15,108 nucleotides of DNA, from the NCBI GenBank assembly GCA_021731205.1, contig JAKFXV010000196.1, forward strand, positions 1 through 15,108. Reading direction: 5' to 3'. A program made the translations under genes and the position numbers. Below are positions 11,845 through 15,108 of this stretch, piece after piece. The stretch's first letter is position 1. Each line of letters starts with the position of its first letter. Origin of the DNA: Nocardioides sp. (GTDB lineage: Bacteria > Actinomycetota > Actinomycetes > Propionibacteriales > Nocardioidaceae). Under the pieces are notes generated by a model. That model was not told the DNA's origin and searched no databases. It was given only the letters and a program-made list of their open reading frames with translations.

Positions 11845-12129
11845 GGAACCCACCCTGCACAGACTCGCTGACCGAACGGAGTCGTCTCGGCCAACGCCAG
11901 AGGTCGGTCCGGTGAACGTCGCAACGATGGGAGAACGCCTGATCCCCAGAAGGCGAGTGGTGAACGCTCCAGCATCGCCTGGTCCTTGGCGAGCAGCCGG
12001 CTCTCGGCCGTCGAGAACGACGTCGGTCACCGAGCGAGATCCGGGCTCCACTCGCCCGACGTGCGTCTCCGCGTCGGAAACCTCACATCTTGTGGCTGTG
12101 GTGTCCACCGCCTCCCTATCCTGCGTCAC
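11845..12129. other. Divergent intergenic region between GT-like gene and mutA
   Basis: These 285 bp lie between the minus-strand GT-like gene and mutA. Both strands stay open in one frame across much of it, but the translated segments look like noise. It should carry the promoters of both genes. A likely -10 for mutA lies at its right end. No long inverted repeat, riboswitch-like element or small ORF with a ribosome-binding site was found. Confidence 0.55.
12117..12122 (+). promoter_or_regulatory. Candidate -10 box of mutA (leaderless start)
   Basis: TATCCT fits TANNNT and ends seven bases before the ATG at 12130, which has no Shine-Dalgarno sequence. Transcription would start at or one base before the start codon. 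TTGTGG at 12090-12095 is too far (21 bp) for a good -35. Confidence 0.45.
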
Positions 12130-13833
12130 ATGCGTGTTAACGCCGTGTCGCAGAGCGACTGGGAGGCAGCGGCCGGCGCCGTGCTGCGCAAGCAGCGACT
12201 CCTCGCGAGCGAGGACCCCGATTCCCTGGTCTGGGAGCGACTGCAGCGACGCACTGTCGAGGGCATCGCTCTCACCCCGCTGGGCGTCCCCGAAGACCTC
12301 GGCGAGGTGCCGTCAACCCGGCGCAATCTCAAGCGCGGTCCCTGGGACATCCGAGTTCGTACGACGGGCGGAGCGGCCGCGCTCGACGAACTCGAGAACG
12401 GCGCCAACTCGCTGTGGCTCTCGCTCCCTGGCGCTGCAACGGTCACCGACATCGCGAGCCGCTTGGACGGCGTACTGACCGATCTCGCGCCTGTCGTGCT
12501 CGACACGACCGAGCCCACTGCCAGACGCCCCTTCTGCGAGTGGCTGGGCTCGACGGGGGTGCGACCCGCGCAGGGCACCGGGCTAGGGGCAGACCCGATC
12601 GGGCATTCGTTCTCCCGGGGTTTCGACACGGTTCCTGAGGAGGCGCGCGAGCGCCGTCTCGAAGGGCAACCACCGGAGGTGGGGGAGATCGCGGAGCTGG
12701 CCCTCGCCGCCGGCATCCTCGGGTTCACGGTCGACGGCACCACCGTCCACGATCGCGGCGCCGGCGACGCCCAAGAGGTGGGCTACACGTTGGCGTCCGG
12801 CGTCGCCTACCTCCGCGAGATCGCCGCCACCGGAGTCGCCATCGACGACGCGTTCGGGCTCATCGAGTTCCGGTACGCCGCCACGGACGAGCAGTTCGTC
12901 ACGATCGCCAAGCTCCGCGCCGCGCGCCAACTGTGGGCGCGAGTCGCCGAACTCTGCGACGCCGACCCGGCTTCGGGACGCCAACGGCAGCACGCTGTGA
13001 CGAGCCGCCCGATGATGACGCGCTACGACCCCTGGGTGAACATGCTCCGTACGACCGTAGCGGCCTTCGCGGCCGGCGTTGCGGGAGCCGACGCGATCAC
13101 GGTGACCCCGTTCGACGCGGCCCTGGGGGAGTCCGACGACTTCGCGCGACGGATCGCCCGGAACACCTCCTCGCTGCTGATCGAGGAGTCCCATGCGGCC
13201 AAGGCGGCCGATCCGGTGGCCGGTGCCTACGCCGTCGAGCGACTCACGTCCGATCTGGCAACGGCGGCCTGGGCCGAGTTCGGCCGGATCGAGGCGGCCG
13301 GCGGGGTCCGTGCCGCGATCGCCGACGGATCACTGGCCCGGCGCGTTGCCGAGACCGCCACTCGGCGCAGGGATCAGGTGGCGAGGCGACAGCGCCCGGT
13401 CACGGGGGTCTCGCAGTTCCCCAAGCTGCACGAGACCCTGCCCGAGCGCGCACCCCACCCGAACGGCACGTGGTTGGTCGACTCCTACGCCGCCGACTTC
13501 GAGGCGCTCCGGGACTTACCCGTCGCGCACGTCGGCCTCGTGACGATGGGTCCCCGAGACGAGCACCATGCTCGCGAGACCTTCGCCACGAACCTCTTCC
13601 AAGCCGGCGGCTTCGCGATCGGCGAGGCCGACCCCCCACAGGTCGTCTGCCTGGTCGGCACCGACGCGGCGTACGCCGAGTCCGGGGCCGAGGTCATCGC
13701 CGGCCTGCGGGCCGCCGGCGCCCGACATGTGGTGCTCATGGGGCGACCCGGTGACCTGGCTGTGGACGACTCGTTCGCCCTCGGTGACGACGCGGTGGCC
13801 TTCCTGCGCCGGACGAGGCAGGCGTCGCGATGA
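12130..13833 (+). CDS. mutA: Methylmalonyl-CoA mutase small subunit
   Basis: This 567-residue protein is the non-catalytic beta subunit of the heterodimeric B12 enzyme that interconverts methylmalonyl-CoA and succinyl-CoA. It has the N-terminal dimer region, a mutase-type barrel with '[21 protein letters not shown]' and '[25 protein letters not shown]' elements, and a C-terminal cobalamin-domain relic from about residue 458. In that relic the catalytic D-x-H-x-x-G is replaced by D477-E-H-H-A-R482, as expected for small subunits. The open frame extends to 11986, but ATG 12130 is preferred because the family N-terminus '[14 protein letters not shown]' follows at once and a TANNNT box sits just upstream; GTG 12145 is an alternative. 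Residues 163-182 are encoded by a repeat-like stretch. Leu463 uses the rare TTA codon. The stop overlaps the mutB start (ATGA). Confidence 0.94.
12617..12676 (+). repeat. Possible decayed copy of the mutB repeat inside mutA
   Basis: The stretch opens with GGGGTTTCGACAC and closes with CAACCACCGG, the same edges as the repeat in mutB and in the same reading frame (Gly-Phe-Asp-Thr ... Gln-Pro-Pro). Its centre reads like the element in the opposite orientation (TGAGGAG ... CGTCTCGAA) and contains a GGCGC-GCGA-GCGCC hairpin (12642-12655). It encodes residues 163-182. Because GAG/GCG/CGC codons for a helix could produce this by chance, confidence is limited. Confidence 0.4.
13516..13518 (+). other. 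Rare TTA leucine codon in mutA
   Basis: Codon 463 of mutA is TTA. In high-GC actinomycetes this codon is scarce and in streptomycetes makes translation depend on the bldA tRNA. I did not tabulate codons for the whole window. Confidence 0.9.
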
Positions 13834-15108
13834 CCATTCCCGAGTCCTTCGCGAACCTGCCGATCTCCGGGGGTTTCGAGACGCTCGCTTCGCTCGCTCC
13901 TCAACCACCGGGGGGGTGGCACTCCCCGGAGGGGATCGAGATCAAGTCGAGCTACGCGCCGGCGGACTTGGAGTCGGTCGACCACCTCGGCACCTGGCCC
14001 GGCTTCGCGCCCTACCTCCGCGGCCCCTATCCGACGATGTTCACCACCCAGCCGTGGACGATCCGTCAGTACGCCGGGTTCTCCACCGCCGAGGAGTCCA
14101 ACGCCTTCTATCGAGCCAACCTGGCGGCCGGGCAGAAGGGGCTCAGCGTCGCCTTCGACCTCGCCACACACCGGGGCTACGACTCCGACCACCCGCGGGT
14201 GCGCGGTGACGTCGGGATGGCGGGTGTCGCGATCGACTCGATCCTCGACGCCCGGACCCTGTTCGACGGGATCCCACTGGACCAGATGAGCGTCTCGATG
14301 ACGATGAACGGCGCCGTCCTACCGATCATGGCGCTCTACATCGTCGCCGCGGAGGAGCAGGGAGTCGCCCCCGAGCAGCTCACCGGGACCATCCAGAACG
14401 ACATCCTCAAGGAGTTCATGGTCCGCAACACCTACATCTACCCCCCGAGCCCCAGCATGCGGATCGTGTCCGACATCTTCGCCTACACCGCCGCGCACAT
14501 GCCCAAGTTCAACTCGATCTCCATCTCCGGGTATCACATCCAGGAGGCGGGAGCGACGGCCGACCTGGAGCTCGCCTACACACTGGCTGACGGCGTCGAA
14601 TACCTCCGAGCCGGCGTGGCCGCCGGCCTCGATATCGATCGGTTCGCCCCCCGACTGAGCTTCTTCTTCGGCATCGGCATGAACTTCTTCATGGAGGTCG
14701 CCAAGCTTCGCGCCGCGCGGTTGCTCTGGACCCGTCTCGTGCAGGAGTTCGGCCCGACCAACCCGCGGAGCCTGAGCCTGCGCACGCACTGCCAGACCAG
14801 CGGCTGGTCACTCACCGCACAAGACGTCTACAACAACGTGCAGCGCACCTGCATCGAGGCGATGGCGGCGACCCAGGGGCTGACCCAGAGCCTGCACACC
14901 AACGCCCTCGACGAAGCCATCGCGCTGCCGAGCGAGTTCTCGGCCCGGATCGCCCGCAACACCCAACTCCTGCTCCAGCAGGAGAGCGGCACCACCGAGA
15001 TCATCGACCCCTGGGGCGGGTCGTACTACGTCGAGCGGCTCACCCATGACCTGGCCGAACGCGCGTGGAGCCACATCCGCGAGGTCGAGGACGCCGGCGG
15101 GACTGTCT
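13830..15108 (+). CDS. mutB: Methylmalonyl-CoA mutase large subunit (3' truncated by window)
   Basis: This is the catalytic alpha subunit, open to the window end: 426 residues of about 730 are visible, covering the N-terminal arm and most of the substrate barrel; the C-terminal B12 domain lies outside. Key residues fit the Propionibacterium enzyme at a constant offset of 8: Y81 in 'WTIRQYAGF', R199 in '[11 protein letters not shown]' and H236 in '[11 protein letters not shown]'. The Tyr/Arg pair indicates methylmalonyl-CoA, not isobutyryl-CoA, as substrate. H320 and Q322 near the cofactor are kept, with Cys at 321 where Ser is usual, and Leu351 replaces His in 'TQGHTQSLHTN'. The ATG overlaps the mutA stop (ATGA), with GAGG at 13815-13818 as a ribosome-binding site. 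Residues 15-27 are encoded by an inserted repeat. Confidence 0.97.
13872..13906 (+). repeat. Dispersed palindromic-type repeat inserted in mutB coding sequence
   Basis: A 35-bp stretch begins GGTTTCGAGACG and ends CTCCTCAACC, with CGCTCGCTTCGCTCGCTC between them (a near-perfect 9-bp direct duplication). Its ends are complementary (GGTT/AACC, GAG/CTC). I recall this pattern as a very abundant intergenic element in Nocardioides genomes. Here it is in frame near codon 15 of mutB and encodes '[13 protein letters not shown]', unlike the N-terminal linker of other MutB proteins. The 5' edge has G where the usual form has T before GGTTTC. Confidence 0.7.

Follow-up and report, generated by a model that had tools for sequence, protein, structure and literature searches.

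How did a copy of a dispersed repeat come to lie in frame within the large subunit of methylmalonyl-CoA mutase (MutB) of a Nocardioides, and has the enzyme adopted it? The window, i.e., the whole stretch of 15,108 nucleotides analysed here, ends within mutB, whose product scored 732 bits against TIGR00641 (cut-off 303.8) and 829.8 bits against the full-length model NF006944 (cut-off 876), a shortfall as expected for a truncated protein. The mutB ATG at 13830 overlaps the stop codon of a mutA-like gene (ATGA). The mutA-like product reached 370.5 bits against a TIGR00642 cut-off of 617.25, and it is either divergent or its start is mis-set. Codons 15-26 of mutB are encoded by the repeat, and these 12 residues lie upstream of WHSPEGIEI with the reading frame open throughout. 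The repeat is bordered by CCGGG and ACCGG and scored 80 against a repeat library that includes its own A subtype, taken from dispersed copies of the host, with a codon-shuffle maximum of 30. The sequence-only reading was right that the copy is in frame and fully open, and that it occupies a variable linker. The start segment upstream of it is conserved far beyond the genus. The features are listed in Table 1.

Table 1. Positions of the repeat, its host gene and the neighbouring gene in the window
Feature	Position	Strand	Evidence
mutA-like small subunit gene	11986..13833	+	TIGR00642; start putative
mutB, methylmalonyl-CoA mutase large subunit, repeat host gene, runs off the window	13830..15108	+	TIGR00641
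MutB conserved N-terminal segment, 14 residues, 5' of the repeat	13830..13871	+	conservation in relatives
Extent over which other genomic copies match, with the CCGGG/ACCGG flanks	13867..13911	+	copies on C233, C134
A-subtype dispersed palindromic repeat GGTTTCGAGACGCTCGCTTCGCTCGCTCCTCAACC, in frame in mutB	13872-13906	+	genomic matches, library score
Rest of MutB variable linker, ahead of conserved WHSPEGIEI	13907..13916	+	

Far from being single-copy, the motif belongs to a dispersed family, as had been proposed. A 101-base query matched 25 places on 16 contigs of the host genome, the window's own included (E <= 1e-3), in a draft assembly of 2.09 Mb and 350 contigs that is 84% complete. The seven best other host copies were 96-100% identical over 41-46 bases. 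A strict consensus, GGTTTCGAGAC-N6..30-CTCAACCACCG, had 13 matches in the host genome and was found in 72 of 215 genomes of the genus, with a maximum of 230 copies per genome, and the reversed pattern gave no match in the same 215 genomes. Across the order, 36 of 293 genomes in an even draw matched, from 4 of 37 genera. Further subtypes were recovered by pattern searches. The sister subtype GGTCTCGTGAC...CTCGACCA was present in four of nine genomes searched (G022, 74 copies; G012, 45; G019, 42; G007, 3), the sister subtype TCGAYACG...CTCRACCAGCG in 9 of 12, and the form GGTTTCGAGGCTCGC...ACCTCAACCACCG matched in G012 (17), G007 (16), G021 (17) and G152 (79); the same search showed subtype D to be dispersed. 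Of 321 fetched loci, 4 contained the exact string of the short type, GGTCTCGACARGCTCGACCA, each time within mutA or mutB; since mutAB loci make up most of those fetched from the genus, this count is no measure of its spread. Repeats also formed arrays in which some neighbours were oppositely oriented (G022:C4:1016645-1016894; G152:C10:104033-104538; G152:C16:1805-2179). Members of the family occur dispersed between genes in Nocardioides and some related actinobacteria.

The contexts of the copies were counted in one genome, G022, where 78 copies in 45 fetched regions were classed by codon scoring. Sixty were intergenic, 13 lay at the edges of genes and 5 within them, in line with the earlier view of a normally intergenic element. 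Under a stricter in-gene test, which misses the MutB copy because it is too close to the gene start, 5 of the 78 copies were in genes, compared with 1004 of 1800 positions drawn at random from these regions, and genes are therefore strongly avoided.

Those copies that do lie within genes were in frame in proteins of unrelated function. The five in G022 fell in a HelR/HelD-like protein below family cut-offs, an allantoate amidohydrolase (579.6 bits vs 372), RecF (268.7 bits vs 172), a biotin carboxylase with strong Pfam and family matches that did not reach NCBIfam equivalog cut-offs, and an unassigned protein. The insert in the biotin carboxylase coincides with a 12-residue gap of the homologue PDB 9yx0. 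An RlmD-like methyltransferase of G022, just under its family cut-off, contains three units and was scored as an edge, like the MutB copy. Two further copies scored as edges (L260, 3253-3286; L266, 3286-3319) encode GLVTGLRPSSTNE close to the C-terminal tails of two proteins that resemble each other. In the host, a RACo/AcsV-like corrinoid activase (L011, G000:C49) carries the in-frame copy GGFETVADAPSSTTG at 1501-1558, within PF14574, and an ABC-F ATPase (L010, G000:C217) carries from 1501 an in-frame array of partial units in which APQPPAEFAAR is repeated; both rest on family matches and were uncalled by the codon test, which was trained on G022. The short string was found in the MutB linker of G133, in another loop of MutB in G095 and also, in frame, in the mutA-like genes of G025 (L045, 2861-2880, AGVSTSSTTD) and G060 (L138, 562-581, SGVSTGSTTA).

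Two of these proteins could be compared among relatives. The HelR-like insert of G022 is 39 nt long, and its site was empty in 7 relatives, G101 among them (the site could be displayed for 8 of 16 genomes, one of them G022). The gene match in G022 exceeded those of 14 of the 15 relatives by 39-42 nt and that of G101 by 27 nt; the other 8 of the 16 genomes, judged from match lengths alone, were 39-42 nt shorter. By eye, no clear target-site duplication was seen at this site when the one filled site was set against the 7 empty ones. In RecF, a single loop held family members in 4 of 24 scored genomes, the host not among them (scores >=45, range 45-64; next 28), in reverse orientation in G022, G074 and G087 and forward in G091. 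The RecF copy of G012, degenerate by eye, scored 25 and was uncounted.

The linker of MutB itself proved to be a recurrent site. We compared linkers from 144 of 215 congeneric genomes (90 as loci and 54 as strings) and scored them against 19 repeat strings, which included a subtype D string taken from a MutB linker and two strings of the short (E) type. A linker was taken as occupied at a score of >=41. Thirty-three of the 90 locus linkers reached this value (range 41-90), the next real linker scored 31, and 450 codon shuffles of linkers reached at most 30; none of the other 54 scored above 25. With G024 added, 34 of the 144 linkers were occupied. The linker of G024 (L038), which had scored 26 when cut inside its array, was added on inspection of the full array and consists of GGTCTCGACTCCGCTCGACCACCGG followed by tandem 18-bp units (DALDHR), in frame. 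As a second control, 3905 windows from the MutB body gave a top score of 48, in two overlapping windows of G095, and otherwise <=37, which exceeds the shuffle maximum and leaves a thin margin below 41. The top windows of G095 are themselves a second in-frame copy in MutB. This copy (L183, 2034-2053), AVSTGSTTG, is of the short kind and sits in a variable loop about 480 residues past the linker tryptophan. Linkers that looked decayed but scored below 41 were left uncounted (G034, 31; G138, 30; G084, 29; G092, 25). For G025, a row from a different mutase was dropped from the count and its MutB (L045) was used instead. The nearest named loci identify the genus as Nocardioides, and the linker of N. 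baculatus (L057) is the same as that of G070.

Several subtypes, in both orientations, occupied this one linker, with reverse inserts in three genomes (G154, G225 and G026). In the closely examined genomes, inserts generally matched copies dispersed in their own genome. The MutB insert of G022 was identical to other copies in its genome, and those of G087 and G017 differed by one base from another copy in their own genomes. Some carriers were weaker cases, with few or no other copies by pattern (G134, 0; G113, 1; G009, 2; G190, 1), and the short type, carried by G133, G126 and G024, is known from fetched loci. Occupied linkers were longer (median 28 vs 24 codons; 33 vs 56 linkers, kinship uncorrected). 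Beyond the genus sample, none of the 78 scorable loci among 80 named MutB loci reached 41, so that the encoded residues were not seen in distant MutB proteins; the best score, 30 (next 28), belonged to Nocardioides marmorisolisilvae, in which a short relative, GGTTTCGACAGGCTCAACCA, can be recognised by eye.

A MutB tree from which the linker had been left out required 18 changes between presence and absence of the repeat, of which at least 6 were forced by starred (well-supported) branches; the tree was built quickly from one gene, 28 of its 86 inner branches are open, the host row is truncated and long, its loci were picked to include linkers that seemed occupied, and the count takes G024 as a carrier and leaves out G197, a fragment. 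Setting aside three short-type carriers gave 16 changes (at least 5 forced), and removing the long row of the host again gave 18 (at least 6 forced). G022 and G012, sisters with a support of 98, differ in subtype, and so do the host, G024 and G026, which group together. Presence switches repeatedly from species to species, so tolerance fits better than an adopted function, and the term domesticated, which the sequence-only reading had used, finds no support.

The frames in which copies are read were also uneven. Among 30 scored forward MutB inserts, GGT was read as a codon in 24; five used another frame (G009, G134, G133, G126 and G190), and the insert of G115 could not be assigned to a frame. 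In G022, six reverse copies within genes all encode LVEEGA.RPSRD or a near variant. For each subtype, the frame mostly used had the lowest or tied lowest net charge among the open frames of that strand, with ties for B forward, C, D and the short type. Selection probably acts on the encoded peptide.

We consider it highly probable that the repeat belongs to a REP-like family whose copies arrive in the genome, are mostly purged when they land in genes, and are kept in loops and linkers when in frame and of low charge. According to this proposal, short REP-like copies of Nocardioides and some relatives would keep arriving, with no RAYT found in the 16 genomes searched. Most copies landing in genes would be purged, in-frame ones in permissive loops or linkers would survive, and frames of low net charge would be favoured among those kept. 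The MutB linker between 'IP.F' and 'W..PEGI' would be one such permissive site, repeatedly hit or overwritten by different subtypes. Movement may be by transposition or recombination, with selection presumably acting as a filter and the effect on the MutB enzyme probably being near-neutral. We found neither a transposase nor a target-site duplication nor an excision, and infer mobility from the distribution of the copies. A broader version, which we hold only tentatively and place somewhat short of an even prospect, is that the palindromes serve as a recurrent generator of loops without RAYT, the MutB linker and the RecF loop being reseeded by whichever subtype is active. With similar reserve, this version would take in tandem growth (as in MutB of G024 and the host ABC-F) and decay, and much of the linker might be fossil repeat.

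A serious rival for MutB, which we nevertheless regard as unlikely, is a single insertion into the ancestral linker, early in the genus, that was homogenised by gene conversion with the dispersed copies of each species and decayed away in many lineages. The same short site is used throughout, G087 and G091 are tree neighbours that both carry subtype C, some linkers resemble decayed elements, and the match between inserts and the subtypes of their own genomes is what conversion would give. Conversion, however, does not easily invert a sequence, and the MutB copies of G154, G225 and G026 are reversed. Nor does it sit well with the two orientations in one RecF loop or with the HelR-like insert of G022 that 7 relatives with a printed site do not have. 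Insertion with purging is favoured because of the differing orientations and the empty sites seen in relatives.

Very improbable is the alternative that the repeat is an untranslated 5' regulatory hairpin of mutB, with the true start downstream. REPs near annotated N-termini often point to misannotated starts, according to a passage in PMC3733652, but the MutB proteins that conserve the 'IP.F' segment upstream of the repeat include those of Streptomyces and Bradyrhizobium, and a start motif precedes the linker in 84 of 90 mutB genes of the genus. On these two grounds the repeat is placed inside the coding region of mutB, where it is probably translated. Furthermore, there is no in-frame ATG, GTG or TTG between the repeat and WHSPEG, and a 5' hairpin cannot account for copies lying inside the genes for RecF, biotin carboxylase and the HelR-like protein. 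Chance convergence of a low-complexity, GC-rich linker on the repeat can practically be set aside. The linker does vary, with many G, A, P and T residues, and the short E-type strings are less firmly countered, but shuffles stayed at <=30 against 41-90 observed, and the near-identity of the host copy to other genomic copies refutes convergence for that copy.

With insertion and purging as the preferred reading, the family can be set beside known systems. Palindromic elements of Rickettsia (RPE) were reportedly described by Ogata et al. in 2000 and 2002. The repeat appears to work like these elements, and the parallel drawn from the sequence is apt, with in-frame copies in several unrelated conserved genes, i.e., those for MutB, RecF, the HelR-like protein, biotin carboxylase, allantoate amidohydrolase, the RlmD-like protein, RACo and ABC-F. 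According to passages of the review PMC10969869, RPEs are palindromic repeats that sit in frame in numerous unrelated genes and seem to be tolerated there. Unlike RPEs, the present copies are from another phylum, are about 35-45 bp long compared with about 150 bp for the first RPEs, were mostly intergenic where counted in G022, and include several subtypes in one loop.

In-gene REPs, including Rickettsia RPE-4 and RPE-6, are described in sections of PMC3733652, as are REPs at the same site of recB in two Xanthomonas species (Di Nocera et al. 2013, PMC3733652). The GTAG/CGTC REPs covered there resemble the present family in forming hairpins with compensatory stem changes and in having in-gene copies, many in DNA-repair genes, and the CGTC class is described as lacking a dedicated transposase. 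The CGTC repeats reported in that account, however, come from 5 phyla, Actinobacteria not among them, and the words Actinobacteria, Streptomyces and Mycobacterium are absent from its main text. CGTC REPs are given there an 8-9 bp stem, compared with a 5-6 bp core stem and no constant CGTC tag here; by eye, the AGGAC/GTCCT form has no CGTC next to its core, which places it outside the CGTC superfamily (8-9 bp stem, 4-5 nt loop, an unpaired CGTC at one end). PARCELs, as outlined in parts of PMC2996958, are also palindromic DNA coding for protein segments and are thought to be mobile, but they are 25-residue amphipathic tandem domains in unassigned ORFs, whereas the copies here are single inserts in housekeeping proteins.

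The family shares with REP/RAYT systems (REPtrons) short dispersed palindromes that occur singly, in pairs and in arrays. Nevertheless, Y1_Tnp (RAYT, PF01797) was unmatched in all 16 genomes searched, with control matches in 5 of 14 named genomes, and a canonical REPtron is therefore unlikely; mobilisation by a RAYT was rejected for these genomes. In comparison with a MITE, terminal inverted repeats are here the GGTT/AACC arms alone. Mycobacterial interspersed repetitive units are short actinobacterial repeats at gene junctions, as units placed where start and stop codons overlap, whereas the present copies lie within linkers and loops of conserved proteins. A pattern for a repeat of the alphaproteobacterial type had no match in 305 fetched loci, which are short and give this result little weight. 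Among open-licence papers we found none on such repeats in Nocardioides or Actinobacteria; PMC2965389, in the passage concerned, names Nocardioides merely for terminator counts.

Rickettsia offers the best-known in-frame palindromes, and a few other bacteria have also been described as carrying them. The present case is an actinobacterial genus whose housekeeping proteins seem to go on gaining small pieces from repetitive DNA. With more than 200 Nocardioides genomes and the same protein loops occupied repeatedly, the growth of loops from mobile DNA becomes testable, as do the questions of which frames selection passes and what moves REP-like repeats where no RAYT is found.

The description of the window copy as palindromic holds in part. 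Its outer GGTT/AACC arms pair. The core is only weakly palindromic and not a good hairpin, the predicted RNA fold of the copy being no better than that of shuffles (z -0.93, not significant). Among the host copies, 11 of 18 had a core stem of <=2 bp. In G022, a perfect core stem of 5-6 bp was present in 74 of 78 copies, with many different arm pairs.
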